The notes under the pieces: model-generated
Told to the model about the DNA's origin: nothing
The model's database searches: none
Seen by the model: the letters and a program-made list of their open reading frames with translations, nothing else
Position numbers and translations under genes: made by a program
NCBI RefSeq assembly: GCF_964340395.1
Contig: NC_135557.1
Span: forward strand, 20,685,725-20,749,724
DNA length: 64,000 nucleotides
Source: Glandiceps talaboti
Lineage: Eukaryota > Hemichordata > Enteropneusta > Spengelidae
Direction of reading: 5' to 3'
Shown here: positions 1,546 to 64,000 of the stretch, piece by piece
Layout: the number at the start of each line of letters is the position of its first letter
Position numbering within the stretch: the stretch's first letter is position 1

Positions 1546-4500
1546 GTAAGTATCTGTATTCAAAGTTTATAGTTTAATTGGAGAATGAAACAAATTGGAG
1601 AAATATATTGTCAATTTGGAATGTTTTGAATTTTATTTTGAGTAACACATGGTAACCATTGATGTCACCACATTGAGTCACTATCAGAGAGTGTGGTGAT
1701 ATCGTACAGAAGAAATTTAATACAACATTGCTGCCGAGATGTTGAGTGACCAAAACGTAATCACGTACTTTCTGTTGAATATATGCAACTAGCATGCATG
1801 TCGTGTAATATGTTGCTATATATTTAACATTTGTCGTTAAATAGGTTGTCGACTTTTCAGTCCAATTGTATTGCTTGTATATTGTTTAGCTAATGCTATG
1901 TGCACATGTCCATCAACCTTATATCTCCCTACACTGTGTATTGCAGTGTTTATCATTATTTTTCACTATGTTGTTGACTATTACACAATGGTACATTAGC
2001 CTATGTACATGTACTGTGCCTAGCTAGTCTATGTATTGTGTCTAGCTAGTCCCATGTACTGTGTCTAGCTAGTCATAATCCATCACCAGTCTATACCCAT
2101 ACACGTACACTATGAATTGGTTGAACAATGAATATTCATGACCCATGAATTGGTGATTATACCATTTCCCAAGTGTCCATCACCACTCCCTGACCCCATA
2201 TCATGTATAACATATAATTTAACATTGCAACAGGTCGGGAATAGTCTGCGTACTGTGTCTAGCTATTGGTATGTGTACATCACCACTATAGTACCTTACA
2301 CTCTGTGATTTACATAATTAAACATTATTGTTCTCTAGGTTGGTGAATATTCCAATGGTACAGCCTGTGTGCAATGTCCAGCTGGTGCCAAGTGTCCGTC
2401 ACCTCTGTATGACCCTATAGCCTGCCCAGAAGGTACATACCAAGACCAGGAAGGTCAATCTACATGTTATCAATGTACTGCTGGCTACTCCTGTTATGAT
2501 GAATCTGTTGCCCCAGTAACATGTAGTGATGGTTACTACAGTTTAGCTGGACAAGTAGGATGTATGGTAAGTATATAAACTGGTGTTGTAGATGACAGTA
2601 GATAGATGCATATATGTAGATGACAGTCATATAGCTTAACACATAGCCGAACATTTTTGTGTGAATTATATAATCACACAGCATATAATACATGTACTAT
2701 CTAAAGGTAAATAGTGTCTATTTTATTGGACATGTACATGTAACTTACATGTATTGTAAGTGTTGTTAAAACCCAAGTCTAGTCAGGAGGGTAAAGAGTA
2801 GACTTTGACTGTTATTTGATATAATGAGTGCTATGTTGTGAGTGTGACTGTACATTTGACATAGTCCATCATAAATAATGCACTGCCATTTCCATACTGT
2901 GGGGTAAATAGTGACTGCAATGCTGACTTTATAATTTGATCATGATAACAGCCCTGTAGACAGTGGTGTGTAATTAATTACTGCAATACCATGACATTGT
3001 AAATATGATTATTACTTACAGCCCTGTGGAGTCTATCAACAGTGAGGTAAATAAGGACTGCAACACAGTGACTTTTGACATTTAATTATTACTTAAGTTA
3101 CAGCCCTGTAGACAGTCAGGTAAATAATGACTGCAATACCATGGTGTTTTAAATTTGATTATTACTTACAGCAATGTCCAGAGGGACGATGGAGTAATGC
3201 AGGTGCAGCATCTTGTCAACTATGTCCAGCTGGTCAGCAGTGTCTAAATGGATCAACACCAATGCTACCTGAAGACTGTGATGCTGGTTACTATGCCCCT
3301 CAGGCTAGTGGAATTTGTTCACCATGCTACTCAGGTAAGTGTAAAACAGTAGATCCTTACTAGGTGAAAGCAGTACTTTACAGGAGAAATGAAGTGGCCT
3401 CAGTGTTTCATGTGATGTTTTTTTTATAAATACACAAAGATACAAAGACACATTTCAACTCTAGACAAACAATAACCGACACATAACACACACACACCAG
3501 GATCCTTAGGCTTAACCCAATCACATTGAAAGGTGATAAAGCATTGCTATTCTTTTACAGTGCAGTAGAAACCATTCTCACAAACCAGAGCTGTTATTTC
3601 TTCCGCAAACTTTGAAATAACAAGTTGACGGTGTTTTGGACGGTGCTGTAAAAGAGGCTGTGGTTTGCGACGATGGATAGAAACACACTTCTAATGATTT
3701 CATAATTTGAATTGTGGAATGCTATCATTACCATTATTTTGACAAGTTTGTCCTTGTTTCCTTGTTCATATAAGATGCTAAGTTGAAAAGTAAAATATTT
3801 CAGATTTTAATGGACTGAATTGATCGCTTATTTTCACAAATTGTAGGAACATACAGTGATGCAGGTGCTGAGTACTGCAGTAATTGTCCAGCTGGTAGTT
3901 CCTGTTTAGATCCAAGTATCAGCCCTGCCACCTGTGGAACTGGTTTTTACAGTCTTGGTGGATTGGTAAGTCTGATTTCTCTGTCACCTGTGTTTTTACA
4001 GTCTTGGTGGATTGATAAGTAACATTTCTCTGTCCCTTTGATACTGTGTTTTATGGTCTTGATGGATTGGTAAGTAACTTTACATGTAATGATTTAAACT
4101 GTGAAATATACTTTTATGGCTTAAAGCTTCTATACACTGTCACAAGATGTGTTACTTTCACTAAGTTAATTCTTGTATCACATTTCACCCATGCTGGAAG
4201 ATCAAAATAGAACAAGGTTGACCCTTTTTCATGTGCACCTCTAGTAATGCATATGTAGTACATGGAACATAAGTTATGGAGTAAACCAAGAAATTGACTT
4301 ATCATCAATTGTATGACACACCAAGGTGGTACTGAAATTCTGTTTCAGGTAATGAGAATTATGTAGCAGCAGTTAAAAGTGTGCTGTTTTCACAAAGCTA
4401 GCATTTATGCACTGTAAACCTATGTAGTGAAACAGTATTGTACACAGGGTGGTATTTTGTATGAGTTTGCCTGTATAAGCAAATATAGTGTAAAGCTATG

Positions 4501-15547: not shown

Positions 15548-18500
15548 GTATGCATCAACCATAAATAATTCCATCTCCAATATTTAAACTTTGTTTAGAC
15601 TAATATAAAACCTGTCACTTTTGATATTATAATTTATTGTCATCCTTAATTGTCAGCTGAAGAGCAGTGTAAGTCCTGTCCAGCTGGTTACTACTGTCCA
15701 TCAGGTGTAGATTCACCAGTTTCATGTCTTGCTGGTACTTTTAATAACAAAGTAGGACAAGATGATTCCACAGATTGTGAGCCATGTATTGCAGGCTGGG
15801 CTTGTACACAACCTGCACTTACAGAGCCTGATTATCCCTGTGATCCAGGGTGAGTATATACCTAGTTAGATGGATATATACAGTATAGACAGTTACATGT
15901 GGTCCAGGGCGAGTATATACCTAGTTAGATGGATATATACAATATAGACAGTTACATGTGGTCCAGGGCGAGTATATACCTAGTTAGATGGATATATACA
16001 ATATAGACAGTTACATGTGATCCAGGGTGAGTATATACCTAGTTAGATGGATATATACAATATAGACAGTTACATGTGATCCAGGGTGAGTATATACCTA
16101 GTTAGATGGATATATACAATATAGACAGTTACATGTGATCCAGGGTGAGTATATACCTAGTTAGATGGATATATACAATATAGACAGTTACATGTGATCC
16201 AGGGTGAGTATATACCTAGTTAGATGGATATATACAATATAGACAGTTACATGTGATCCAGGGTGAGTATATACCTAGTTAGATGGATATATACAATATA
16301 GACAGTTACATGTGGTCCAGGGTGAGTATATACCTAATTAGGTGGATATATACAGTATAGATAGTTACATGTGATCCAGGGCGAGTATATACCTAGTTAG
16401 ATGGATATATACAATATAGACAGTTACATGTGATCCAGGGTGAGTATATACCTAGTTAGATGGATATATACAATATAGATGGTTACATGTGGTCCAGGGT
16501 GATTACATACCTAGTTAGATGGATATATACAATATAGACAGTTACATGTGATCCAGGGTGAGTATATACCTAGTTAGATGGATATATACAGTATAGACAG
16601 TTACATGTGATCCAGGGTGAGTATATACCAAGTTAGATGGATATATACAATATAGATGTGATCCAGGACAAGTATATAAATACCTAGTCAGAGACAATCT
16701 ATACATTAACATGTGATCCAGGTTGCGTATACAAATAGAAATGTAGATGTACATGTAGATAGAAGATAAATATATATATACAGTATAGATGGTTACATGT
16801 GACCCAGGATGAGAACATAAACACCTAGTTAGATATATTATATAGTATATACATGTACAGTAATGTGTGGTTCACAGTGAGTATACAAATACATAGATAG
16901 ATATATACAGTATAGACAGTTACGTAATATGTGGTCCACAGCAAGTATACAAATACATAGATATATACAGTATAGACAGTTACGTAATATGTGGTCCACA
17001 GCAAGTATACAAATACATAGATATATACAGTATAGACAGTTACGTAATATATGGTCCACAGCAAGTATACAAATACATAGATATATACAGTATAGACAGT
17101 TACGTAATATATGGTCCACAGCAAGTATACAAATACATAGATATATATAGTATAGACAGTTACATGTGATCAGGGTGAGTATACAAATACATATATAGAT
17201 ATACAGTATATACCATAACGCATGATTCAAGTGAGTATACACATAGTCAAATAGATATATAGAGTAAGTGCTGTATAGGCAGGACTATGTAACTGTGTTC
17301 ATAATGTTTGTTATTCTATTTTTGTTTGTAGATATTACTGTGCTGAAGGTAGCAGTAGTCCTAATGATATCAACCAAGGATGTCCAGCTGGTACATTCAC
17401 TAATTATCATAATTTAACATCACCATATCAGTGTAGCATTTGTCCAGCAGGAGTTGCTTGTTTACTAGGTAAGCCAATCAGAGTTGCTTGTTTACTAGGT
17501 AAGCCAATCAGAGTTGCTTGTTTACTAGGTAAGCCAATCAGAGTTGCTTGTTTACTAGGTAAGCCAATCAGAGTTGCTTGTTTACTAGGTAAGCCAGTCA
17601 GAGTTGCTTGTTTACTAGTTAAGCCAATCAGAGTTGCTTGTTTACTAGGTAAGCCAATCAGAGTTGCTTGTTTACTAGGTAAGCCAATCAGTGTTGCTTG
17701 TTTACTAGGTAAGCCAATCAGGGTTGCTTGTTTACTAGGTAAGCCAATCAGAGTTGCTTGTTACTAGGTAGGCCAATCAGAGTTGCTTGTTTACTAGGTA
17801 AGCCAATCAGTGTTGCTTGTTTACTAGGTAAGCCAATCAGAGTTGCTTGTTTATTAGGTAAGCCAATCAGAGTTGCTTGTTTACTAGGTAAGCCAATCAG
17901 AGTTATAAAGTAAGTCTATGCTTGTATACAATGAGTCAAACAAAATTAGCCAGAATTGTTTGTTTACTAGGTAAGCCAGTCAAACTAAAGCTGCAGCAAT
18001 CAGAATCATTGTATCTACCATTTTAAGTGCAAAACTGTAGATGAGCCAATCAGAATCACTGTATCTGGCATGTTTAAGTACAAAATGAAGATGAGCCAAT
18101 CAGAATCATTATATCTGGCATTATTAAGGTACAAAATGTAGATGAGCCAATCAGAATCACCGTATCTGGCATTATTAAGGTACAAAATGTAGATGAGCCA
18201 ATCAGAAGCACTGTATCTGACATGTTTAAGTACAAAATGAAGATGAGCCAATCAGAATCATTGTATCTACCATTTCAAGTACAAAAATGCAGATGGGCCA
18301 ATCAGAATTAGCAGCTGAAATGTAAACCTGGCAAACCATCGGGGTATCAGATTATACCATTTATACAATTGCAAAATTATCTCTCTTATACAGACCATTG
18401 ATTTATCGCAGCAGCAGTAATTGTACAGTGTTTGCAATTTGCTAATACTAGTGTTATCTATTTGATTTCAGCCACCGGTGGTCAACAGAGACCTCCAGAA

Positions 18501-21500
18501 ATATGTGCACCAGGCCATTACTGTCCTGAAGGAACTGAATATCCTGAACAGCATCCCTGTCCAGCAGGATCCTACAGTAATCTTACCAACTTAGAAAGTT
18601 TTTCTGATTGCTACCCATGTACAAAGGGTTATTTCTGTTTGGAAGGATCTACAGAACCAACTGGTATATGTCCAACTGGACACTACTGTCCTGTAGGTAG
18701 GTTAGACTGTAATTTGGTATATGTCCAACTGGACACTATTGTCCTGTAGGTAGGTTAAACTATAATTTGGTATATGTCCAACTGGACACTATTTTCCTGT
18801 TGGTAGGTTAAACTATAATTTGGTATATGTCCAACTGGACACTACTGTCCTAGGTAGGTTAGACTATAATTTGGTATGTCCAATTGGACACTATTGTCCT
18901 ATAGGTAGGTTAGTAATTGTCTGCATATACAGCTATCAGATAGTGTATACAATGATTTATGAGTGTCTTTCCCTCAGCTAAGGGAGTGAATGTGGTTGAA
19001 TGGTTAGAATGGCAGGCTTTAAATTTGCCAACTGCTGGTTCAAGCCTAAGGCCTAAGAAATATGATTGTTTGGTTCCGGTTACCCGACCCCACTTAGTTT
19101 TTCACACCAACAACGGGAAATAATTAACAGTACTATCATGACAGAAAAATCATGACAGACTATGTGGAAGTAACTTGATAAATATGTACTATGATTTCTA
19201 TATATCCAACATCACACTCCTAATGTGATGTACTTAATCTTAACAGGTACCCAATGGGATACTCAGTACCCATGTAATGCTGGCACATATTCAAACAGAG
19301 AAGGCAATGAACGGTGGGAAGTATGCGATCCTTGCTTGGAAGGTCATTATTGTCCTCAGGGTTCATCTCTACCCACTGCTTGTCCTGCGTAAGTATAAAA
19401 CTTTCTTTTTACAGGTCTTATGTACAACATTACATAGTTACTACTCTGACAATTTAGAGTTCAGTTTTAATACCAGGGTAGACACAAACTACAACTATTG
19501 TTTACACATTTCTCCAGTTCTCATCAGCCTGCAGTGGTTACCACTGTGTTTCAGGATTGATTACAACATTTTGCTGTTAACATATAAAGCTCCCCTTTCA
19601 TGGCTTAACTCCAGAGTACATTTGTGATCTTCTCCAGCCATACATCGTGATACAATACAATGTATCATTTGTATATTTTAGGGGGACATTTCATAATACA
19701 ATATATCATTTGTATATTTCAGGGGTATATTTCATAATATAATATATCATTTGTATATTTCTGGGGTACATTTCATAATATAATATATCATTTGTATATT
19801 TCAGGGGTATATTTCATAATATAATATATCATTTGTATATTTCAGGGGTACATTTCATAATACAATATATCATTTGTATATTTTAGGGGTACATTTCATA
19901 ATATAATATATCATTTGTATATTTTAGGGGTACATTTCATAATATAATATATCATTTGTATATTTTAGGGGTACATTTCATAATATAATATATCATTTGT
20001 ATATTTTAGGGGGACATTTCATAATACAATATATCATTTGTATATTTCAGGGGTACATTTCATAATACAATATATCATTTGTATATTTCAGGGGTACATT
20101 TCATAATACAATATATCATTTGTATATTTCAGGGGTACATTTCATAATACAATATATCATTTGTATATTTTAGGGGTACATTTCATAATACAATATATCA
20201 TTTGTATATTTCAGGGGTACATTTCATAATACAATGTGCCATTTGTATATTTCAGGGGTACATTTCATAATACAATATATCATTTGTATATTTCAGGGGT
20301 ACATTTCATAATATAATATATCATTTGTATATTTCAGGGGTACATTTCATAATACAATATATCATTTGTATATTTCAGGGGTACATTTCATAATACAATA
20401 TATCATTTGTATATTTCAGGGGTACATTTCATAATATAATATATCATTTGTATATTTTAGGGGTACATTTCATAATATAATATATCATTTGTATATTTTA
20501 GGGGTACATTTCATAATATAATATATCATTTGTATATTTCAGGGGTACATTTCATAATACAATATATCATTTGTATATTTCAGGGGTATATTTCATAATA
20601 CAATATATCATTTGTATATTTCAGGGGTACATTTCATAATACAATATATCATTTGTATATTTTAGGGGGACATTTCATAATACAATGTATCATTTGTATA
20701 TTTTAGGGGTACATTTCATAATACAATATATCATTTGTATATTTCAGGGGTACATTTCATAATACAATGTATCATTTGTATATTTTAGGGGTACATTTCA
20801 TAATACAATATGTCATTTGTATATTTCAGGGGTACATTTCATAATACAATATATCATTTGTATATTTTAGGGGTATATTTCATAATACAATGTGTCATTT
20901 GTATATTTCAGGGGTATATTTCATAATACAATGTATCATTTGTATATTTTAGGGGTACATTTCATAACACAATGTATCATTTGTATATTTTAGGGGTACA
21001 TTTCATAATACAATATATCATTTGTATATTTCAGGGGTACATTTCATAATACAATGTATCATTTGTATATTTCAGGGGTACATTTCATAATACAATATAT
21101 CATTTGTATATTTCTGGGGTACATTTCATAATACAATATATCATTTGTATATTTCAGGGGTACATTTCATAATACAATGTGTCATTTGTATATTTCAGGG
21201 GGACATTTCATAATACAATGTATCATTTGTATATTTTAGGGGTACATTTCATAATACAATGTCATTTGTATATTTCAGGGGGACATTTCATAATACAATG
21301 TATCATTTGTATATTTCAGGGGGACATTTCATAATACAATGTATCATTTGTATATTTCAGGGGTACATTTCATAATACAATATATCATTTGTATATTTCA
21401 GGGGTACATTTCGTGATCAAACTAGAGGTGAAGATTTGCTAGACTGTTTTAACTGTACAGCAGGTTATTATTGCAATGGTACAGGGAATGGTGATCCTAC

Positions 21501-27500: not shown

Positions 27501-29088
27501 TGCAAGCCTTCTTGCAGATACCCGAGTATTCCACACATGTACTCACCTGTCATGGCGTTCTGTCATATTGCTTTAATTCCAGTTATGACACTAGAATACT
27601 CTTTCTGATATTACTCAAAAAGTTGTTTAAAATGTCCTTAATTCATATGTATTCAGTACATTCCTTTTGAGTCATGGGCAAACTTAGATGTTAACAGTTA
27701 CACAGAAAATGAACTAAAACACATCAGAAATTTACAATCATTCGTAACTTTCACACTTTTGAGAGCATGTTTTGTGGGTGTGTGTTGTGTGTTGGTCTTG
27801 AACTAGTCTAAACTTGATGTGATATCTGTTCTGTATTTATTTGGTTGTATCTGATTTCTGTAATTCCATTGTTGATATAACATTCACACTCAAGATTAGC
27901 CATACCTCTAATTAGTTATTTTTCAAGGACTTATATAAATAATACCATCCTAGTACTTCTTTTTTGTAAAAAAAACAAACCCCTTCTGTTTGTCACTGTT
28001 TATTAACAAATAGTATGTGATATTGTTTTTACTATATTCGTAACAAATACTATAATTATGATATGTTTTCTACCTTACATTATTAAGAGATTTGCATTAT
28101 ATTAAAATTGTATTTTATTTTTTCCTTTGGTGACAGGGTACTTATGTTTACAATGAAGGTCGACAAGAACTGTCTCAGTGTGATCCGTGTCCAGCTGGGG
28201 AGTACTGTGGATCAGTAGGTCTACCTGCCCCAAGTGGCCTTTGTACAGCAGGCTTTTACTGCCTTGAAGCTTCTAATACATCAACACCTGTAAGTGTATA
28301 TTTACATACTCTGAAAAATTAGTATGTTAGGCCATATTTCAGTTGTAAGAAAAACAAAAGATTGTATAGTTTGGCCACTAGGAGTGCTATTCAGATACAC
28401 CAGGGAGGTGACCAATGATTGTTTATTTCAAATATGACATTTTCTCACCCCCCCCCCCAAACAAACCCAAAACAACCATACCAAACCTGTTTAGATGACA
28501 AAAATTGTTGAATGTTTTAGCTACATTGTATGGACTGATTCATGTTCATTCAAGCGCATGGGATTAAAGCATTCGTATTGCAACCTCTATCCTACCAGGT
28601 GCCCTTTTATCCTATCTGGTTCACCTCTATCCTACCAGGTCCCTGCTATCCTACCATGTCCACCTCTACCATACCAGGATGTTCAAAAGTCTGCTAGTTT
28701 TTTGGTGCAGATGTACTTTTAAGTTTTATTGAAGATGCTTATGGTGTTTGTCTTTTTTTCAGACGGAGGAAACTGGGATGGGTGATGTGTGTCCGATAGG
28801 TTACTACTGTCCAGCTGGTACTGTTGGTCCTTATACCTATCCATGTGGTAATGGTACTTACAACAATGTGACTGGTGCTCAGGAAAGAGATGATTGTCTG
28901 GATTGTCCACCTGGTGAAGTCTGTGAAGGAATGGCATTGGTTGGTTCAACTGGGCTGTGTGGACCTGGTATGTAAACTTAATGTTCTTTATACCCATTGG
29001 TTGGTTAATCAGTATAAATTTGTGAGTCAAATATCATTGAATTCTGCAATAAACCGAACAGTGAGGTAATTTTGTTGTGGACTCTGTC

Positions 29089-29125
<37 letters not shown>

Positions 29126-29128
29126 GTC

Positions 29129-29160
<32 letters not shown>

Positions 29161-44100: not shown

Positions 44101-47100
44101 CTATTGTGTACTGTATGCATCCACACCTACACCAGATCCAGCAAATGTTACAGGTGGACCCTGTCCTCAAGGAACCTTCTGTGAAGCCGGCTCTGAATGG
44201 TATACTCCATGTCCAAAGGGTACATTTGGTGATAGAGATAAACTTCCAAGTGAAGCGGATTGTACTGACTGTTATCCTGGGAAGTATTGTATGCAGTCTG
44301 GTCTCACTGAGCCTAATGGTTCATGTTTAGCCGGCTATTACTGCCAACTGAGAGCCATTGATCCAAATCCTTCGAATGAATCATATGGTGATATATGCCC
44401 TTCAGGTTATTATTGTCCAGAAGGAAGTCCAGACCCAATAGATTGTGATTCAGGTACCTATCAACCATATACTCTAAGGACTAATGAATCAGATTGTCTT
44501 CAGTGCTCACCAGGCAAATTCTGTAATGGAACTGGTCTCTCTGCCGAATCAGGATTTTGCTATGAAGGATTTTACTGTACTGGTGGAGCTAGTTCACCAG
44601 CTCCAAGAGATGGTGTCACTGGTGACATATGCCCAGCTGGTTCTTACTGTGAAGAAGGATCACCTGGTCACACATTCTGTCCAAATGGTACTTTTATGAA
44701 TCACACAATGGCATCAGCATGCTATGACTGCCCAGAAGGTTATTACTGTGTGAATCGTGACAAAGCAGACGCCTGTCCACCAGGGTACTATTGTCCTGCT
44801 AAAACAGGTGCTGACCTCAGATTGTGTCCCTCTGGAACATACAACCCGATATATGGTATCTATGAAGAGAGTCAGTGTCTGCAATGTGATGGAGGCATGT
44901 ACTGTGAATTACCAGGAAGTGCAAATGTTACAGGTGAATGTACTGCTGGCTACTACTGTCGGTATGGTGTCAACATGGCTGAGCCAAATGGAGGACATAC
45001 AGGAGATGGAGATATATGTCCACCAGGAAGTTATTGTCCAAAGGGATCTCCTGACCCGATTGGCTGTGCTAAAGGATCTTACAATGAGTTACCAGGCCAG
45101 TCAGTTTGTCAACAGTGTCCTGCTGGTTATTATTGTATGGAGAATGCCACCACTTACACTGAAACAATTTGTCCAACTGGATACTATTGTCCACCTGGTA
45201 CAACATACGACATGGAGTATCCATGTCCCATGGGTACGTACAATCCAGTCAATGGCAGTGATAGTTTAGATGACTGTTTGTCCTGTCCACCTGGTGAATA
45301 TTGTGAAGCTGATGGTTTAGAATTGCCAACTGGTAACTGCAGTGAAGGCTGGTACTGCACTGGAGGCTCTTACATGGACAAACCTTTACCATTCAGTAAT
45401 GCCAGTGATATTTCAGAATGTACATGTCCATTGGTCAACTACACAGGTGGTAAATGTTGGCCAGGTACGTACTGTCCAAGTGGATCACCCTATCCAGTGG
45501 AGTGTACGGAAGGATGGTATTGTAGAGAATATGGACGATTTGAACCAAATGGACTGTGTGATCCTGGATACTTTTGTGATGGAGGGGAATCAGAACCAGA
45601 TCCAGCATATGGTTCATGTCCACCAGGTTCCTACTGTGAAACTGGATCAGTTACACCAACAGCATGTCCTGCAGGTAGATTCTCCAATACATCTCGCAAT
45701 ATCCAACTGAGTGACTGTATCGATTGTACAGCAGGGAAATACTGTGAAGGGAACAGTAATACAGAACCTACCGATGACTGTGCAGCAGGTTATTATTGTC
45801 CAGCTGGTCAAAGTTCACCTACTCCATCAGAGTACAATTGTACTATAGGTCATTACTGTCCAATAGGTAGTCCATTGCCTGTACCTTGCTCATCAGGAGA
45901 GTATCAAGATGAAATACAACAGCCAACATGCAAAGTTTGTCCTGCTGGTTACTACTGTGATGCTGTGGAAGCTGCTACCCTGTATGGTGTTCCAAGCCAT
46001 GGTGTTGTCATACCTGTTGATTGTGTAGCTGGATATTACTGCCCAAGTGGAACTGAAAGCGAACATCAATATCCATGCTTAGAGGGTTACTATAGCAACA
46101 GTACAAACTTAGAAAGACATGCTCAGTGCCAGCCATGTCCCGGTGGAACATACTGTGATGGACAAGGATTGGTAGAATATGCCGACTTTTGTGATGCAGG
46201 CTTTGTCTGTGTATCAGCTGCTAATAATTCTCGACCTACAGATGGAGTGACTGGGTATGAGTGCCTACCTGGTTATTACTGTCCAAAAGGATCAGACCAA
46301 GGTACCAAATGCCCTGTTGGTACCTTTAGCAATACCACTGGACTTGAAAATGTTACAGAGTGTGAACAATGTACACCAGGATTTTACTGCCAAACAGAAG
46401 GTTTGACAGAACCAAGTGATCCATGTTTAGCCAAATATTATTGTACTCTAGGAGCCATTGATCCCAATCCAACTGGTGAAATCTATGGTGATACATGTCC
46501 TGCTGGCTACTACTGTCCAGAAGGCACATCTGATCCTGTAGAGTGTCCAATAGGCACATTCTTACCATATGATGGTCAAGATGAACTGTCAGATTGTATA
46601 GATTGCAGTGGTGGATACTATTGTGAACTGAAAGGCCAAACAAATGTCACTGCGATGTGTTCTGAAGGCTATTATTGTGTAAGTGGTGCTAATACATCGA
46701 CACCATTGGATGGCATAACTGGAGATGAATGTCCACCAGGATCTTACTGTGAAGAAGGCAGCAGCCTTCCAAGTCCTTGCAATGATGGTTACTACATGAA
46801 TCATACAAGAGCCAGTGCATGTGATATCTGTCCATCAAGATATTATTGTGTGAATAAAGACAGAGTGGACCCGTGTCCAAAGGGACATTATTGTCCAGTA
46901 GGGACTGGTTTTGGATGGGAGTCATGTCCATTGGGAACATATGGACCTGTTGAAATGTTGGAAGCTGCTAGTGAGTGTACCCAGTGTGATCCAGGGCACT
47001 ACTGTAATGAAGTTGCATCTATCAATGTGACAGGGCCTTGTTCAGAAGGATTTTACTGCGAGCTAGGAGTGGATACCCCTGCACCATATAACAACAATAC

Positions 47101-50100
47101 AGGATTTGGAGGACCGTGCCTGGAGGGTACTTTCTGTCCGGAGGGTACAGGTTATCCAATTGGTTGTCCACCAGGCACATATAATGATCTCATAATTCAA
47201 GCAGAATGTACAGCTTGTCCTGCTGGATACTACTGCCTGGCTAACTCTACAACTTATCTAGATACACCTTGTTGGAAGGGCTTTTATTGCTTGCAGTCAA
47301 CTGAATATCCCGCTCAGTATGCCTGTCCAGCTGGAACATACAACAACAGAAGTGTTGCTAATAATGCATATGACTGTCTTCCATGTCCAGCAGGGAAATA
47401 CTGTGAAGGTGATGGATTGGATGTACCATCTGGGGACTGTGCACCTGGTTGGTTCTGTAGTCGTGGTGCATATACAAGTAAACCTCATCCATATGTTAAC
47501 ACATCTGATTCCTACTCAGTTTCTGACTGTCCTATATATTCTCTAAATGAGACGGGTGGCATTTGTAGTCCTGGCACCTACTGTCCAGAGGGGTCAGACC
47601 AGCCAACACCATGTCCAGCTGGTCAATATTGTGGACTAAGTGGATTAGATACTCCAAGTGGACCCTGTCTGGCTGGATTTTTCTGTAATGGAAGTTCCGT
47701 TGTATCTGATCCCATCCAGTGTAGTCCTGGGTACTATTGCCCAGAAGGGACTGCAGTAGAAGAACCTTGTATACCTGGTACATATTCAGGAAGAGATGGA
47801 AATGTCAACATTACTGATTGTGAAGCATGCACGCCAGGGTACTACTGTGAAGAGTATCGACTAGCAACTCCTAATGGACCTTGTGAAGCTGGGTATTACT
47901 GTCCTGGTGGCCAGGATACATCTCAACCCACAGATCTAGCCTGTAGTCCCGGACACTTTTGTGTAGAAGGTAGTTGGAACCAGACTGGATGTCCAAGTGG
48001 TTACTACCAACCACATTGGAAGAGATCAACCTGTGATAAATGTCCACAAGGTTTTTACTGTAAAGCATTTGGCGACTATGAAGATCTAGATGCTGAAAAC
48101 ATGACATTAGCCGGTAACTTCAGTGGCAGGTACAGAAGTTACAGAGGTGTGTCTGTACCAACTATTTGTCCCGAAGGTTCTTATTGTGAAGAAGGAACCC
48201 GGCATGAAACAGAGTATCTGTGCCCAGAAGGTACCTATAGTAATGTTACTGGTCTGTCTTCATCTAATCAATGTACACCATGTGAACCTGGAATGTATTG
48301 TCAAGGAGAAGGCAACATAGAACCAAATGGGGAATGTTCACCAGGCTATTATTGTACACGAAGTGCCTATAATTCCACTCCTAGTGATGGTACCACTGGC
48401 AACATATGTCCAGCTGGAAAATACTGTGAATCGGGCAGTATTACTGGAGTTGGTTGTCCCATTGGTACATTTAGCAATCAGCTTGGTTTACAAAGTGACT
48501 CAGAGTGCAGTGATTGTACACCTGGTTATTACTGTGGACAAAGTGGACTTACCAAAGAATCGGGACTTTGCTGGGCAGGATTCTACTGTACCAGTGGAGC
48601 TGAAGACCCTGCACCAGTACTTCAAACTTATGGAGATGTTTGTTTTGCAGGCTACTATTGTCCAAATGGCACTGATTATCCAAATCCATGCCCTGCTGGT
48701 ACTTTCCTGTATACTGATGGAATGGGTGATATTAATGATTGTACACCCTGTTCAGCTGGATACTATTGTGAATCTGCTGGACAAACTAACGTCACTGGAC
48801 CTTGTCAGGAGGGTTTCTACTGTATAAGAGGTGCCAATACAAGTGCTCCATTAGATGGTAATACTGGAGATATATGTTGGGATGGACATTATTGTGAAGA
48901 GGGATCACCTTGGCCAACCTCATGTGGAAATGGTACATTCATGAATCACACCGGTGCTGCAGCATGTGACATATGTCCTGAGGGATACTATTGCATCTAT
49001 GGAGACCGAGCAACACCTTGCCCACAAGGATACTACTGTCCAGAAGGTACAGGCTATGACTATCAACCATGCCCTACTGGCACATATGGAGCTACAAAAG
49101 GACTCATTCAAGAACCAGATTGTACACCATGCACTGGTGGAAGATATTGCAGTACACCAGGATCACCAACAACTGATGGGCCATGTTCAGCTGGTCATTA
49201 CTGTGAATTAGGTGTGGATACCAATACTCCCACAGACTCAGATGGCCACAAAGGTGTTGGTGGTGTTTGTCCAGCTGGTTCATACTGCCCAAGTAATACA
49301 CCAACACCTATTCCATGCCCAGCAGGTTCATACACAAATATACCTCAACAAAGTGGTTGTGGTCAGTGCCCAGCAGGCTTCTATTGCAGTGGCAATACCA
49401 GTGACCCTTACAGCTATCCATGCCCAGTAGGACACTACTGTCCCCGTGGCACAGAATATGGGGAAGAATATCCATGTCCTGAGGGTACCTACAATAGTTT
49501 AGACAATCAACAGAATAGTACATCATGTGAACTTTGTCCTGCCGGTCAGTATTGTGAGGGAGAAGGGTTATTTGAGCCCAGTGGCAATTGCAGTGCTGGT
49601 TGGTTCTGTACTGGTGGATCCTGGAATGCTAAACCACTGCCACTAGGTAATGCAACAGATCTATCTATGTGTACATGTCCTAATGTGGACTACACTGGAA
49701 ACCGATGTCCACCAGGTTATTTCTGTCCAGAGGCATCAACCCATGCATTAGACTGTACTCCAGGATGGTATTGTGAGGATTATGAATTGAGTCTACCTAC
49801 AGCTGAATGCACTGCAGGCTACTATTGCCCAGGAGGAAACAGCAGACCAGACCCTCCAACCACTGAATGTCCAGTTGGTCATTATTGTGAGCTAGGAACT
49901 GCTGTACCGACAGCCTGCCCAAATGGTACTTACTCTAATACCACACGCAACACAGAGCTAGCAAATTGCTTGTCATGCACACCTGGCATGTATTGTGAAG
50001 GTGAACATCTGTCAGAACCAACAGGCCCATGTGATCCTGGATATTATTGTCCAGCTGGACAGAGTACCAAGACACCAACACTGTACGAGTGTCCCCAAGG

Positions 50101-53100
50101 TTTCTACTGCCCCCAGGGAAGTGCTGACCCATTGATCTGTCCACGTGGTGAATTCCAGCCTGAAGATAGAGAAGCGACATGTCAGCCATGTCCAACTGGA
50201 TTTTATTGTGATCCTTACGAGTTTGGGAACGTGACAGGAATTATTGTACCCATGGATTGTATACCTGGGCATTACTGTCCCCAAGGTACTGAGTATGCAG
50301 AACAGAACAAATGTGAAGTTGGCACCTTCAGTAACATGACAAACCTTGCAAGTCAGAGTGAATGTACCAATTGTACAGGAGGCTATTACTGTGATGCTGC
50401 TGGTTTAACAGAACCTACTGGTGAGTGTCTTGCTGGATACTACTGTGCTGAACGTGCTGAAACATCCGCTCCAACAGATGGTGCTACAGGCAACATATGC
50501 CCACTTGGTCGGTACTGTGAAATTGGCTCAGTTGCTGGTGTTCATTGCCCTGCAGGTCGTTACGGTAACACAACAGGTCTGAAAGCAGAGGCAGAATGTA
50601 CTTTATGTGATCCTGGATATTATTGTCCTACTATTGGATTAACCCAACCCCATGATGAGTGTGTTGCAGGACATTATTGTGAACTTGGTGCTACAAGTTC
50701 CAACCCAACTGCTGAAGTGTATGGTTATCTCTGTCCTTTTGGAACATACTGTCCAGAAGGTACACCAACACCTGTGGACTGTGACAGAGGATATTATCAA
50801 CCATTAAAAGGTCAAGATCAATCAAATGATTGCATACCATGTGATGGAGGATCCTACTGTTTGACATCAGGACAGGCCAATATTACTGGACTCTGTGATG
50901 AAGGATTTTATTGCAGTGGAGCTGCTTATGACCCTTCTCCTACTGGTTAGTTTAGTTCAAAATGTTACGACCTTTTCACTTTTTTGCATGATATTCAGCA
51001 TTTGGTTGGTTTCCTGAATTCAAATTTTGCATGAAAGTGAAAGATTTTCTGAATTCAAATTTTGCATGTAACACGGTATACCTGTTCAGTTAACAAAACA
51101 AGACAATAACTTTATTTCACAGACAAAATGACTTAATGGAAATTGGGTGCATAACATTTTCTCTATCAAGATATGTGTTAGAGTCACTGTGGAAGCATTT
51201 CTGCTGAACTGGTCAAAATTACTGATACAATGTTGAAACTGAACAGCCTGTAACTCATTGTATTTTGTTATTTATCATATACAGTCTTCATACATAAAAT
51301 GTCAATGTTTTTCCTAATTATTATTTAATTAACTAAGATAGGTGACAGGTCATTACATTTGGAATTCTTACAATCATCAAAAAAAGGTTGAGAGAGCAAC
51401 TGACACAATCACATGTTTGTTCCACTTTACAGATGGATCTACAGGTGATGTTTGTCCAATTGGACATTACTGTCCCATTGGTACTGAGATCCCTATCCCG
51501 TGTTCTAATGGAACATACATGAACGTAACCAATGCTGCTGAATGCTTGGAATGTCCCGAAGGCTACTACTGCATACGAGGAGACTATCCAATAGCATGTG
51601 AAGCTGGATATTATTGTCCACCTGGTACAGCCTATGACTTAGAACCCTGTCCACCTGGTACGTTTGGACCAATCGAAGGTCTTGCTAGATCAGATCAATG
51701 TACTGAATGTAGTGGTGGTAGTTACTGCGCAATACCAGGACTAGATGTAGTAAGTGATGATTGTGATGCTGGCTACTACTGTGTTCATGGTGTTAATGTG
51801 TCAGCACCCGACAATAATGACTATACAGGAGAAGGTGGATTGTGTCCAGCAGGGTTTGAATGTCCAAAGGGTTCTACACATCCACAGCCATGTCTTCCAG
51901 GTACTTTCTCCTTGCAGGAAGGGAGAGACCAATGTGAGACATGTCCATCTGGCAAGTATTGCGTCAATATGACAGTTACTCCCATTGATTGCCCAGCTGG
52001 TCACTATTGTCCAGATGGAACTGAATATGCTGACCAATACCCATGTCCAGAAGGTACATATAATAATGCTACAGGTCAACATAATGATACTAGTTGTCAG
52101 CTGTGTCCACCTGGTTTATACTGTGAAGGCAGTGGTCTGGTCTACCCATCAGGACTCTGTGATGCAGGCTTCTATTGCTCAGGTGGCTCTGACATGAATC
52201 GACCATTTGATGTTGGTGAAATAGCACCGTTACCAACTCCTGTAAGTTACGTGTATCCAAATGATACCTGCCATCCATTGTATGACTGTGTTTGTCCAGG
52301 CTTTATTCTCAGTGTGGGCGGATTGTGTCCACCAGGCTATTATTGTCCTATCGGATCTGATAACCCAACACCTTGTACCCCAGGAATGTATTGTCAAACA
52401 CCCGGATTGGCCTACCCAACTGGTGATTGTTATGCCGGATATTACTGTAATGACACAAGCTCCAGTCCTGACCAGCATGTGTGTATACCTGGACATTATT
52501 GTCCCATTGGGACAGATGTACCCGAGAAATGTCCACCTGGTTCATACAGTGGAGTATATGGTAATGAGAATGTGACAGACTGCATTGAGTGTACACCTGG
52601 TAAATATTGTGAAGGTGAGTTCATATGTCAATAGGCAGTATTCATTGACCTTTATGTCAATGTTGTATTTAGTGCTAGCAGTCTCGCAACCCATGTCAAT
52701 TCTGTAATTGTTTTGACCAGTTTTGTCTTTAGTACATGTGAAATAACATTTTCATCATTAAATGATGGAAAGATGTTCACATAGCATAGACTAGAAGCAG
52801 CATTGAGCTGACAACAGTTCCCTAGAATGTGAATGTATTTTTTTTTAAGTTTGTGATTCATCCAAATCTGCAATCTTGTATTTTGTTTTCTAGGTTTTGG
52901 TAACACTGCTCCAGACAATGACTGTGATCCAGGATACTACTGTCCAGGTGGTCAAACTTCTAAAGCACCTGTTGATAATCTCTGTCCATCTGGTTTCTAC
53001 TGTCCACGTGGATCCTGGGAACCTTTGACCTGTACTAACGGAACATTTCAACCTCACAGTGGACAGAGTGAGTGTGGACAGTGTCCTGCAGGATTCTACT

Positions 53101-56100
53101 GTGATCCTCTTAATGGTAAGAATTATACACTATATTTAATTTATACGAGACGAAATTTACTTCATTGTGGGACATCTGGTATATCATTTTCCTGTTCCTC
53201 GTCCAAGACACCTTTAAGATACAGGTTTGAAAATCACTGTAGTTTGCATCACGGTCAAGCTGGCAATGTACAAACATTTAGGGGCAGCTACTTGAATGTT
53301 GTTATGTCACTGCATGGACAAGAATGTTGCAGTGATGCATACATGGATACCTCTTTCTTCACAAAAAGCAGCAGGATCTTGTCAGCTATGTGTCTACTAC
53401 ATGTTTGTAAATGTTTGCTTTAGGTTCTGCATCTAATCTGTATTTGTTTCAATCCCGGCTCGTCTCTCGACACTTCCCAATGTGTATTAAGCCAATATCT
53501 TCACAAATACAGTCCCCAAAATGCAACTATTTCTTTCCTGTACATTCATAATAATTGCCCATGGCCAACATTAGGACATAAAAAATCTGTAATACTCTCT
53601 AAATGGCTGTTTCATAGGTGCTCTATGAGCACCGTGAGCATTTTACAAAGTCATCTAGCATAATGAGTGCCATCATAATGCGACCCCTGTTTATATGCAG
53701 ATTAAGCATTTACATTTTGGCTTAGGTTCTGCATCTAATCTGTATTTGTGACTGTTTTCTTACAGGTACTATATCAAATCCATGTCCACAAGGCTACTAC
53801 TGCCCACCTGGTACAGCTATTGGTGATGCTAAAGCCTGTCCTGCTGGTACATACGGTGCTGATTTCTATCTATGGCATATTGATAATTGTACGTCATGTA
53901 CAGCTGGATATTACTGTGAGACACCAGCATTAATAGAACCTACAGAGGAATGTTATGCAGGCTACTACTGTACAGGAGGTGCCTCCACACCTACTCCCTT
54001 TGATGAAGGAGTTGATCCATTAAATAACTCCTCTTTTACTGGTAATGATATCTGTCCACGTGGGTATTATTGTACAAATGGTACAGTGTATCCAGAACCC
54101 TGTCCAGTTGGTACATTCTCTGTTAACACTAAAGTGACTGCACCTGAAGACTGTGAGGATTGTAGACCTGGTAGATACTGTAATATACAAGGTTTTGTCA
54201 AAGTAGATGATGCACCATTATGTTATCCAGGCTATGTATGTACTGGTGGTAGTACCACTCCTACACCAACTGATCCAACTATGGGCTATATATGTCCTGC
54301 TGGTTACTATTGCCCAGCTGGTGCCATCTTCCATCTAGGCTGTCCTGTTGGTACTTACAATCCAAATGAAGGCCAAGGCAACTGTACAGTGTGTCCTGAT
54401 GGTTTTATGTGCAATGTAATGAACATGACAACCCCTGAACCTTGTATGTCAGGTGAGTTTCTGTAATCTAGTATTTTTATGTTGAACATAATAAACATAA
54501 TAACCCCTAAACTGTGTAAGTCAGGCAATCTAAAAATCTATAACAGGATTAATGTATTCAAACACAATGAACACATAATATTTGTCTTTCATCAAAGGCA
54601 AATGTTAATACTGCACAGAAGCAGAACAAATTTTGAAGTGATTATTATAAAAGAGTTTTAATTTATGTTGATAATTCCAGTGTTTATAGTCATATACTTT
54701 AATATATGGTGCAGTCGTAATTAGTCCCCGCGGACGAAGTCCGGAACGGGGACTTATGGATTGGGTTCCGTCTGTCCGTCCGTCCGTCCGTCCGTCCATC
54801 CGTCCGTCCGCAGCCGTTTCTTGGAGATGCCTGTACCGATTTTTTTCAAACTTGGTACAGGGGCAACATGCTATGGCATACATATGCACGTCAGTTTGTT
54901 TTATGATACGATCCAATATGGCCGCCTAGCAGCCATTTTGTTTGCGAATTTTCCCTGTCTAAAGCCATAACTCAGACATGCTCACACAGATCTCATTCAG
55001 AGTTGGTATTAGGACAGTGTTCTATGGCATATATGTGCATATTCATTGTTGTCATGATACGATCCAATATGGCCACCTGGCAGCCATTTTGTTTGTGAAT
55101 TTTCATGTCCAAAGCCATAACTTAGACATGCTTGAACAGATCTCATTCAAAGTTAGTATTAGGACAGTGTTCTATGACATACATGTGCATATCCATTTTC
55201 ATTGTGATACGATCCAATATGGCTGCCTGGCAGCCATTTTGTTTGCAAATTTCCCATGTCCAAAGCCATAACTCAGACATGCTTGAACAGATCTCATTCA
55301 AAGTTGGTATTAGGACAGTGTTCTATGACATACATGTGCATATCCATTTTCATTGTGATACGATCCAATATGGCTGCCTGGCAGCCATTTTGTTTGCAAA
55401 TTTTCCATGTCCAAAGCCATAACTCAGACATGCTTGAACAGATCTCATTCGAAGTTGGTATTAGGACAGTGTTCTATGACATACATGTGCATATCCATTT
55501 TCGTCATGATACGATCCAATATGGCTGACTGGCAGCCATTTTGTTTGTGAATTTTCCATGTCCAAAGCCAACTCAGACATGCTTGAACAGATCTCATTCA
55601 GAGTTGGTATTAGGACAGTGTTGTATGACATACATTTGCATATCCATTTTCATATTGATATGATCCCCCATACCCGACCAATCCTTTATTGTTGTAGGCA
55701 TGTTCCATGTCCGACAAGCAGACACAACATATCTAAGTCTGTTTGATTTAGGTTCACAAGTGTTGTTGCGTGATCAGAGTAGTGCTAATTCCTTAAAACC
55801 CAATCATAGCGGGGACTATGTCATTCTCAATGGCTTGTTTTGTACAACTTAAGATAATCTTATGAAAAAAGCTAACTTTAATGAAGGTTTTTAACAAAAG
55901 GAAATGTGTCCGAGACTTATCATATGGAATCCTATATCTTAGTGAGAGGTTTTGAAAGTCATATCTGACAATTTATCAATGCAATACATTATCTTACAGG
56001 CCACTACTGTGTAGAAGGCATTGCTAGTCCAGTACCATGCCCTGAAGGCACCTTTAACAATGTAACTCAACTCAGTTCAGAGGATCAATGTGCAGATTGC

Positions 56101-59100: not shown

Positions 59101-62100
59101 GATTTAACATCACCAATTTGTTCATATATTCGTGTTTATTATATGCTTTTCAAAAGAAGAGATCCATGCTTTATCTTAAACTTGTTTCAAGTGAGATGTT
59201 TTTGTATATCATACATGCATGTATGTATGTATGTATGTATGTATGTATGTATGTATGTATGTATGTATGTATGTATGCATGCATGCTTGCTTGCATGCAT
59301 GCATGCATGCATGCATGCATGCATGCATGTATGTATGTATGTATGTATGTATGCATGCATGCATGCATGCATGTACATTGTATGTATGTATGTGTACAAG
59401 ATATCTGTGACTTAGCTATAACTTATTTCTGTTTAAATGCCAGTGTACATCAGATGTATCATCACACAAGATCTGTAACTTTGTTTTAACTCATTGTAAC
59501 TCATTTCTGTTAAGATGCCAGTGTACATCATATGTACCATCACAAGAGATCTGTAACTTAGCTCTAACTCAATGTAACTCATTTCTGTTTAGATGCCAGT
59601 GTACATCATATGTATCATCACAAGAGATCTGTGACTTGGCCTGTTTGGACACAAAGCCTACAGTTGGTGGTACACTGAATGCAGCAGCTCAGCTACAAAT
59701 GGTTACAGAAGATCCAGTCACTGGAACGAGTACTACTGAGGTATATTTAGTCTTATCAGTTCAACTTACCATTTGACAAGTACTACAGCGGTACATGTGT
59801 ATGTGTATAGTACTTCCTTCAATGACATACAACAACTTAAGCTAAATAGCCAAACATTGAGAAATCTGGAACTTTTGCAAACGTTATGACATCAGTGTAT
59901 TTACTAAGGGTGGTCTTATAGTAGGTAAACTCTACTGATGTCCCCAGTCATTTTACAGGGTACAGTTCCTACACAAAATTATTAAAGATTGTATCTAGGA
60001 AACTATGCAACTTTTACCCCTTTCCCACATTCTGTTACCGGGGCAACCAAACCTTAGCAAAAACACTGAACATACAACATGTATCAATAAATATCTGACC
60101 ACCTAATTTGGTATTTAATGTATTACATTATTTGTTGATGATTAATTTATTGACTAATTGCATGCTTGGTCAAATTAATGATTACGTGGTCTTGTTACTT
60201 GATTGGTTCATTACTTGTTTTTCTGTGTGTTTATTTTACCTCACATAGACTGTTCCAAACACAGTTGGTCCCAGTCAACACACATCAGGTACTAAGACAA
60301 CCCATATTGTCAGTTTTACTCCCGGAGAAGTACAGGGACATATCATTACAGATCCATCTCAGACATCACTGGTCCAATGTAAGTCTCAATTATTTATTAG
60401 ATCATTTTATTCAGGTTAAAACTGGATAAGTGTCACAAAACAACAAAGTACTGAAGAGTTGGCTTGTTTGTGTTAAGACTCTCATAGTCATACATTTGTA
60501 CAGCGATATTGAAAGGGGCACAAGAATGTGGGATTGTAACCATGGTCTTTAAATGTGAGCCATATGATAAAATGTAACAGTCTTAGTAAGATTTTTGTGG
60601 AGCCATATGATAAAATGTAACAGTCTTAGTAAGATTTTTGTGGAGCCATATGATAAAATGTAGCAGTCTTAGTAAGATATTTATGGAGCCATATGATAAA
60701 ATGTAGCAGTCTTAGTAAGATATTTATGGAGCCATATGATAAAATGTAACAATCTTAGTAAGATTTTTGTGGTGCCATGCAATAAAATGTAACAGTCTTA
60801 GTAAGATTTTTGTGGTGCCATATGATAAAATGTAACAGTCTTAGTAAGATTTTTGTGGAGCCATATGATAAAATGTAACAGTCTTAGTAAGATTTTTGTG
60901 GAGCCATGTGATAAAATGTAGCAGTCTTAGTAAGATTTTTGTGGAGCCATATGATAAAATGTAGCACTGTTGTAAGATTTTTGTGTCGCCATACAACATT
61001 TTATTTCAGGTCTCTTGATTTAAGTGTAATTAAATATTATTCCCCAATAGGAAAATACTAGTGACCTAAGGGGCCCTTGTGACGCACATTGTCGTGACAT
61101 GACGTACAGCAACCAGGGTATACATTCCATATTTTTTTGTTGAACCTGTCTCGTGCATGGTATAACTTCTAGTGTATATTGTGTTTTACAGTCCCTATAA
61201 CTGCAAGTGGCAATGCTGGTGTTTTTAATTTAAGAAGACGACTGCTAATGACTACTGTAGTACCAACCAATAGTAGTTTAACTAATGTTGATGTACCCTA
61301 CATACCAAACCCACTCATATGCCTAGAGATTGAAGATATGGTCGTCTTCCGTGTCTACATCAATGAACCAGATAGAAGTCTCAGTAACTTCCCTATTTAT
61401 GTCAAAGATCATTTATTCAACTCTAACCCATCCTTTGACTACGGAGCTTTCACGGAACTCAAATTCCTTGTTGAAGAAACCAATCTTACGATCTGGAATT
61501 TTGCACATGTCTTCACGGAGGCTGGTAAATATGTGTTTGCTGATAGCCAGGAGCCAGATAGAGAGGTGATAGTCACGGTAGAACCGACTGGGTCATCTTG
61601 TGATGATAGTCAAACAAGAATGCAGCCATCGTCTCCAATTAATTTAGTAGACAGTGGCGTTAATAAACAAGATACCCCTAATGAAGAGCCAGACTGGGGT
61701 CTTATCATCGGTGAGTTACAACAAATACATGTTATGCAGTAAAAGGAAATTGATGACGTTAGTTTTATATAGTGCTTTCCCCACTCTGTGCTTAAACGCA
61801 CCTTACAATTATTACCCCAGGCATGGATCTATAAAAGCACATTGATCCTTTACACTTCCTCAGAATCACTTGTGAGCATACAATCCATTTGTATTGCTGC
61901 ATCAATAAGAACATAGGATTAAAGCATTCACATTGAAACCTCTATCCTAACAGGTTCCCAATAAGCCGTTTTCTGTCTTGCGGCAGATCTCACGAGATCC
62001 TGTGTGAGCCATTACATCCATAGTAACCACTTGGGGTTGGTGGGTGGTCAAGCTGAAAGTGTCAAACACTTGGCAACACTATTGTTTTCAACATCATCAC

Positions 62101-63271: not shown

Positions 63272-64000
63272 GTAATTATCAAATATTATCAATTGACAGT
63301 ATAATCTAATAGGTAATTATCAAATGTTATCAGTTGACAATATAATAGGTAATTATCAAATATTATCAATTTACAGTATAATCTAAAAGGTAATTATCAA
63401 ATGTTATCAGTTGATAATATAATAGGTAATTATCAAATATTATCAATAGACCATATAATCTAATATGTAATTATCAAATATTATCAATTGACAGTATAAT
63501 AGGTAATTATCAAATATTATCAATAGACAGTATAATCTAATAGGTAATTATCAAATGTTATCAATTGACAGTATAATCTACTAGGTAATTATCAAATATT
63601 ATCAATAGACAGTATAATCTAAATGGTAATTATCAAATATTATCAATAGACAGTATAATCTAAGTGGTAATTATCAAATATCAATAGACAGTATAATCTA
63701 ATAGGTAATTATCAAATGTTATCAATTGACAGTATAATAGGTAATTATCAAATATTATCAATAGACAGTATAATCTAATAGGTAATTATCAAATATTATC
63801 AAATGTTATCAATTGACAGTATAATAGGTAATTATCAAATATTATCAATAGACAGTATAATCTAATAGGTAATTATCAAATATTATCAATAGACAGTATA
63901 ATCTAAGTGGTAATTATCAAATATTATCAATAGACAGTATAATCTAAATGGTAATTATCAAATATTATCAATAGACAGTATAATCTAAGTGGTAATTATC
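63250..64000 (+). repeat. 37-43-bp tandem array repeating the exon 57 end and donor, runs off the window
   Basis: Exon tail cagttcaatctaatag|gtaattatc is copied as cagtataatctaatag|gtaattatcaaatattatca at 63311, 63348, 63543, 63583 and so on, at least 17 copies. Some lack the ctaatag part, giving 37-bp units. All keep GGTAATTATC. Confidence 0.95.

Follow-up and report, generated by a model that had tools for sequence, protein, structure and literature searches.

Tandem arrays astride the exon borders of a giant cysteine-rich repeat gene, with an excess at donor sites

How is a gene spliced when many of its introns open or close with tandem copies of the splice site itself, and why should such arrays lie across exon borders at all? 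The question is raised by a 64,000-nt stretch of DNA (hereafter the window) from a 590-Mb genome (47 contigs), in which a giant gene for a cysteine-rich repeat protein occupies positions 1459 to 63271 of the plus strand with 57 exons, as delineated by reading frame, Pfam matches, and junctions shared with homologues. The original prediction, whose exon numbering is kept here, held that about 18 exon borders of this gene lie within tandem arrays. We find 15 of these borders clear (the donors of exons 4, 8, 11, 15, 16, 17, 24, 33, 42, 56, and 57, and the acceptors of exons 19, 32, 36, and 53) and 2 weak (donor 38 and acceptor 3), whereas acceptor 41 is unconfirmed. Probably, the arrays are "mirages", that is, minisatellites born locally from a founding unit of 26–110 bp that stood astride an exon border and expanded into the intron, with a preference for the donor side.

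Copies of the exon borders and their placement

For each border, a 30-mer word (14 exon and 16 intron bases) was compared by edit distance with the closest match in the adjoining intron, and the identical words were compared with all other introns as a control (3,192 donor and 3,136 acceptor comparisons). At 6 or fewer edits, 12 of the 57 donor words recur in their own intron (exons 4, 8, 11, 15, 16, 17, 24, 33, 41, 42, 56, and 57), against 0 of the 3,192 controls; exons 19 and 38 follow at exactly 7 edits, a distance reached by 2 controls. Acceptor words recur at this threshold in 5 of 56 cases (exons 2, 19, 32, 36, and 53; control 1/3,136), and that of exon 3 does so at 7 edits, as do 4 controls. 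Two of these matches were taken as chance, namely the exon 2 acceptor, a single distant copy without AG, and the single exon 19 donor copy at distance 7. When the word is restricted to the last 20 exon bases, 11 of the 57 donors (exons 4, 8, 11, 15, 16, 17, 33, 42, 50, 56, and 57) have a copy within 4 edits in the following intron, compared with 15 of the 3,192 controls and 0 of 56 on the wrong side, indicating that exon sequence itself has been duplicated into the intron. The corresponding acceptor words match at 4 of 56 borders (exons 2, 19, 36, and 53; control 17/3,136; wrong side 1/57). The tandem units thus cover both exon and intron sequence over a conserved border, as in mirages, and the arrays contain real exon borders, as had been claimed, since these are conserved in homologues and their words are copied.

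Among 55 unit records of Tandem Repeats Finder (TRF; score of at least 150) along the gene, in which exons 3, 4, 36, 38, and 50 are without a record, no related pair lies more than 1.5 kb apart. The units thus differ from site to site and do not represent one dispersed element, in agreement with the original prediction, which points to a local process that has been repeated. Arrays are difficult to assemble, but an error of assembly or the spread of a mobile element is a scarcely credible explanation, given that the compared units are unrelated between sites, that divergence among copies is graded, that the frame is intact over 57 exons, and that homologues cross nearly all junctions (see below).

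Within the giant gene, the borders contained in arrays show a donor-sided excess, about five-fold over random placement, and acceptors show none. In an array test of 29 intronic TRF arrays, the extra copies were removed and the founding unit was placed randomly in its own intron in 50,000 simulations, with arrays counted as crossing once they include 10 bp or more of exon. Eleven of the 29 arrays cross a donor, against 2.1 expected (0/50,000 simulations), and 3 cross an acceptor, against 2.1 expected (P = 0.36); with the TRF score limit set to 100 or 150, the donor counts are 11/28 and 10/24. In a grid test, the first units of arrays fall on 12 of 57 donors and on 254 of 4,582 interior points; within their own introns, the counts are 11 of 56 donors against 3.5 expected (P = 0.00015) and 4 acceptors against 5.5, and P values of 0.004, 0.006, and 0.0003 are obtained when 4, 5, and 6 edits are allowed. 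The rate of first units is 11/57, 12/57, and 11/55 at −10, 0, and +10 of the donor, 4–5 of 54–55 by 40–60 bp into the intron, and 0–3 of 50–54 at 100–240 bp, and the profile around acceptors is flat. Hence, a single process acting equally on both kinds of border, as had been proposed, is not supported: donors are over-represented, and acceptors remain at the level of random placement.

Could the arrays touch borders by coincidence, simply because some must do so in a locus so rich in minisatellites? Minisatellites cover 31% of the non-exon bases and 1.8% of the exon bases of the window, compared with a mean of 1.3% in 13 other tiles of the genome (nine arbitrary and four chosen by the Pfam family PF07699) and 7.0, 0.8, and 0.0% in three myosin tiles. 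In a 164-kb region that includes the window, ten bins of 10 kb each (30–130 kb), which approximate the giant gene, average 19%, about 15 times the level of the 13 tiles, and the flanking bins reach 5–11% on one side and 0–7% on the other; the neighbourhood of the giant gene is somewhat minisatellite-rich as well. The density of border arrays, described as exceptional, is therefore a true property of the locus, but part of it reflects this local abundance. Coincidence would also fit the acceptors and the donors outside the window, neither of which show a significant excess. It is nevertheless an unlikely account of the window donors, where no simulation attained the observed number of crossings and where first units are most frequent at the donor itself.

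We therefore favour locally born mirages, for which the following course may be envisaged. The locus would be inclined to tandem duplication by slippage or unequal exchange, and a unit straddling an exon/intron border would be multiplied and then expand into the intron. Expansions spanning a donor would survive, with exon definition keeping U1 on the exon-adjacent site, and additional upstream acceptors would be riskier, so that acceptor arrays would stay at the background rate. Tolerance alone could lift donors at most to the level of the intron interior, which suggests to us that donors are further favoured, either in the birth of arrays or in their survival. It is conceivable, if on balance doubtful, that tandem duplications in this lineage arise preferentially at the donors of active genes, with minisatellites seeded by a factor that is bound to the donor or caused by it. 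Candidate seeds are a co-transcriptional U1/R-loop structure and the chromatin step from exon to intron; gene architecture would then steer where new satellites arise. Border arrays make it a countable question whether donors are a birthplace of minisatellites.

The giant gene and its arrays

The gene model was obtained with a splice-aware procedure and corrected by hand to 57 exons, which amount to 23,368 coding bases, or 7,789 codons, with 0 stops. According to gene prediction, the gene begins upstream of the window and extends about 16 kb downstream of it. PF07699 (Ephrin_rec_like) is present in 2 of 3 scanned stretches of the protein, a segment that looks transmembrane by eye is encoded by exon 56, and the protein also has a cytoplasmic part. 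Exons 1–46 span 87–274 bp each, whereas the exon at 41289–50945 measures 9,657 bp and may have originated by intron loss; exons 48 (1,182 bp), 50 (687 bp), and 52 (1,882 bp) are long as well. A 626-residue query of the protein matches Ptychodera flava with 79% identity over 65% of its length. For the exon 47 protein (3,218 residues), P. flava is nearest by identity (80% over 45%) and Saccoglossus has the top bit score (64% over 77%). Crinoid, sea urchin, and amphioxus proteins come after the hemichordate matches, and the host is by this similarity a hemichordate, probably near Ptychodera.

The model was aligned to 240 listed homologues, 14 of which were inspected at each junction over a 17-residue span. 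At 55 of the 56 junctions, at least one of the 14 crosses without a gap, the exception being that between exons 49 and 50; at 54-55, the sole ungapped match is identical at 3 of 17 residues and lends no support. Among the array junctions, identity across the proximal join is 17/17 at 16-17 (with Ptychodera; 4 of the 6 covering homologues are ungapped at the proximal site), 16/17 at 15-16, 24-25, and 31-32, 15/17 at 42-43, and 14/17 at 18-19, the weakest being 52-53 (10/17) and 56-57 (8/17). The donor of exon 57, whose partner exon lies beyond the window, stands outside this test. The alignments show that, at the testable array junctions, the exon-proximal splice site is the one conserved in homologues.

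All of the arrays lie on the plus strand and, except where another basis is given, were recognised by the border word. On the donor side, exon 4 (border 3965; 3943–4089; border-word match and copy list) has three copies in total, spaced by 49 and 55 bp, and exon 8 (border 7428; 7384–7965; TRF and border word) has about 5.8 copies of a 100-bp unit, those in the intron containing an additional GTAAGT. The 49-bp unit at exon 11 (border 12116; 12082–12222) continues in more diverged copies until about 12320. Three consecutive exons carry arrays, namely exon 15 (border 15849; 15839–16656) with about 14 copies of 59 bp, exon 16 (border 17468; 17451–17904) with about 15 copies of a 30-bp in-frame unit, and exon 17 (border 18696; 18662–18913) with about 4.8 copies of 53 bp. 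Further downstream are exon 24 (border 25709; 25692–26054; 26/52-bp unit), exon 33 (border 33013; 32978–33181; 5.3 copies of 38 bp), and the weak 29-bp array of exon 38 (border 36112; 36095–36204). At exon 42 (border 38486; 38406–38791), 81 bp of the exon are included in an array of 3.5 copies of 110 bp. Exon 56 (border 62591; 62550–62862) has 5.8 copies of 54 bp, and the array of exon 57 (border 63271; 63253–64000), with 27.9 copies of 41 bp in total, runs on for about 370 bp past the window. Two donors had been missed: exon 41 (border 37811; 37819–38254) is accompanied by a weak 42/51-bp array with three diverged border copies, and the end of exon 50 (border 54452; 54433–54525; exon-only word, extent by eye) has one diverged copy in the intron. 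The same intron 50 holds, at 54903–55666, a 151-bp array near a TCCG microsatellite that looks unlike the border arrays and may belong to a dispersed element.

The largest acceptor array is that of exon 19 (border 21402; 19654–21412), in which a 41-bp unit is present in 43 copies. Exon 32 (border 31938; 31570–31951) follows with 5.4 copies of 70 bp and exon 53 (border 59593; 59419–59637) with 2.8 copies of 78 bp. What had been listed as an array at exon 36 (border 34749; 34639–34762) is a single upstream duplicate 94 bp away. Exon 3 (border 3172; 2895–3171) does have upstream copies, albeit weak ones in which chiefly the intron side is repeated, and their number varies with the method (1 in the border-word list, 2 in the divergence table, and 3 by eye). 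The acceptor of exon 41 has 0 border-word copies and only a partial copy of the exon interior. Such interior-only copies, with the border absent, were seen by eye in adjoining introns at 37479–37523 (exon 41) and 31086–31117 (exon 31).

Splice-site choice among the copies, and other genes

In keeping with the original prediction, most copies retain their splice-site dinucleotide: GT is present in 124 of 148 copies from 16 donor arrays, a lower bound because the exon 33 copies are displaced by an alignment gap, and AG in 76 of 79 copies from 7 acceptor arrays. In the divergence table, which includes copies from arrays outside the window, the GT columns of donor copies are 8.5% divergent, compared with 7.4% for the exon, 7.3% for the intron beyond +6, and 10.6% for exon positions −3 to −1, so that the divergence of the donor GT looks like drift. 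When donor strength is scored with a matrix built from the giant gene, the real donor is matched in score by one or more distal copies in 9 of 12 donor arrays; exon 15, for instance, has 10 such copies among 17, and exon 16 has 13 among 16. At such arrays position, not strength, must decide, and the choice of the exon-proximal site among equally strong copies would come from its context. Exon definition is the simplest candidate.

It had been argued that only the proximal site ever satisfies the reading frame. Among the copies tested, use of a distal donor would indeed disrupt the frame or run into a stop in 11 of the 12 arrays, but the claim fails at exon 16, where 8 of the 16 distal donors are in frame and open. 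Proximal use at that exon therefore rests on the full identity with Ptychodera across the join. On the acceptor side, one weak exon 53 copy would remain open. The spliceosome thus apparently singles out a donor from as many as about 28 tandem copies that are nearly identical, and an acceptor that follows 43 upstream copies, 41 of which retain AG, making the giant gene a natural experiment on position versus sequence in splice-site choice.

Other genes were surveyed with our own gene finder, trained on the giant gene, where it recovers 44 of 46 exons exactly; the exons in other tiles are thus predictions. The survey covers 10 of the 16 other tiles and the side of the window with the MRPL39-like gene described below, six random tiles, in which few exons were predicted, having been left out. 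Array borders are found at 2 of 92 donors and 0 of 100 acceptors, with 1.1% of non-coding points as the background. The donor frequency does not differ from that background (P = 0.27) and is well below the 12 of 57 in the window (Fisher P = 0.0002). The excess of arrays at borders over introns holds for donors in the window but is not significant outside it. A looser test at 6 or fewer edits, run on nine random tiles and on the minus strand of either flank, yielded 0/34 donors and 0/41 acceptors.

Border arrays nonetheless occur in other genes as clear single cases. An exon of a neighbouring gene, which we take to be MRPL39-like (tile L009, 5292–5489), has a donor array of about 15 copies of a 42-bp unit at 5473–6090; a myosin-head exon on another contig has one of about 11 copies of 31 bp; and a predicted exon on contig C1 has one with a 50-bp unit. 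In another myosin tile (L034, minus strand, border 1476), an exon end with its donor is copied once about 400 bp into the intron, not in tandem. In tile L012, two predicted 282-bp exons of one gene (8174–8455 and 9235–9516), about 1 kb apart, encode identical residues save the last residue shown. Genome-wide, with both strands counted, there are 3,027 tandem pairs of AGGTAAGT and 1,464 of the backward motif, although pairs over-weight large arrays; single motifs of the AGGTAAGT type in the 16 tiles number 17 against 15 backward. The first places listed of the 3,027 pairs, all on C1, represent five arrays, of which one starts at a clear predicted donor, one at a plausible donor, and three at neither.

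Several of our results weigh against a donor-sided, drifting set of mirages. The null of the array test takes a single repeat unit as the founder, which is a simplification. With stricter copies the grid test loses strength (2 edits, 5 against 2.8 expected, P = 0.13; 3 edits, 6 against 3.0, P = 0.07), and within the window alone the contrast between donors and acceptors is borderline (12/57 against 4/57, Fisher P = 0.057). Applied to other genes, the array test places 1 of 15 arrays over a donor (P = 0.44) and 0 of 15 over an acceptor. Of the 15 arrays in the remainder of the giant gene, 2 cross donors (for one of these, the gene finder had assigned the donor to a later copy) and 2 cross acceptors (P = 0.25 in either case). 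Donor arrays reaching 9 bp into the exon (in the myosin tile L032 and at a downstream exon of the giant gene) and one acceptor array reaching 8 bp are not counted in these tests. The distal donors score 4.85 on average, against 7.19 for the real ones, and in 3 of the 12 arrays (33, 38, and 56) no distal copy equals the real donor. Finally, positions +3 to +6 of the donor copies are only 3.3% divergent, and the AG of acceptor copies is 1.4% divergent against 4.1–4.5% around it, which is not as expected from pure drift. As copies within one array are not independent, and most acceptor copies belong to exon 19 or to one exon further downstream, these low values may reflect either constraint or chance.

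The same low values would be expected if selection kept the copies, whether as decoy or booster sites (for U1 landing or for recursive or dual-specific splicing) or, at exon 16, as an in-frame length switch. The presence of distal copies as strong as the real donor and the open frame of half of the distal copies at exon 16 are compatible with this possibility, as are the AG/GT sites of exons 16 and 17, which score as acceptors at 5.6 and 5.3 (the mean of real acceptors being 7.0), and the use of tandem dual-specific sites by human UBC, as described in the extracts of PMC10809524 available to us. However, divergence is slightly higher in the GT columns of the donor copies than around them, just 6 of the 12 array donors end in AG before the GT, and among the 12 donor arrays tested exon 16 is the only one whose unit keeps the frame open. 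Selection on the copies is unlikely, and locally born mirages remain the reading that we prefer.

Comparison with known systems

Intron gain by tandem duplication, as in the Rogers model, of which potato RdRp is reportedly a case (PMC4974935), resembles the present arrays in that a sequence containing a splice site is duplicated in tandem. If the arrays were scars of intron birth, through tandem duplication of exon sequence with AGGT, the two ends of each intron should betray it, but resemblance tests over 56 introns give no sign of this: the mean edit distance between intron start and next exon start is 13.75 for own and 13.76 for other pairs, and between exon end and intron end 13.91 and 13.73, respectively. 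In addition, 0 of the 29 arrays stretch from the donor to the acceptor of one intron. We consider such an origin very improbable, even though mirages were proposed as a route of intron gain in the amphioxus globin paper (PMC3087553, in the parts compared here).

The dual-specific tandem sites of human UBC and VCX3A, as far as the extracts of PMC10809524 describe them, are alike in being tandem copies of splice sites within a gene. In those genes, the intron measures a whole number of units, and one sequence serves as both donor and acceptor, whereas here the copies are intronic and the proximal one is apparently used. The arrays were rejected as members of this class: none of the 29 spans an intron from donor to acceptor, and half of the 12 array donors (6/12) have no AG before the GT.

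The closest counterparts, as the original prediction had suggested with reference to the amphioxus Adh locus, are the mirages of that animal, and the arrays match the descriptions in the portions of PMC3087553 and PMC3902484 compared. Border-spanning minisatellites are known there from the globins BflGb6 and BflGb9 (PMC3087553) and PGBD5 (PMC3902484), as well as from Adh3 (Canestro et al. 2002, via citing papers) and troponin C. In these partial accounts, as in the present gene, minisatellite-like units (10–160 bp in amphioxus) include the border, many copies carry GT or AG, both kinds of border are affected, and regular splicing is apparently undisturbed. The cases differ in that splicing was followed by reverse transcription PCR (RT-PCR) in amphioxus and is inferred here from protein homology, and in that copy-number instability is reported for the amphioxus mirages, the present case being one haplotype. 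The donor excess was measured here, and a donor bias of mirages is without prior report in the portions of the amphioxus mirage literature compared. Among the matches listed, which do not cover the subscription literature, no report of mirages in hemichordates or more widely was found outside amphioxus. Amphioxus is a cephalochordate, whereas the present host is a hemichordate by protein similarity. As far as can be seen, the mirages described here thus extend the known amphioxus kind to a new phylum, and they do so at an unusual density, with at least 15 borders in one gene compared with one or a few per gene in the amphioxus accounts.

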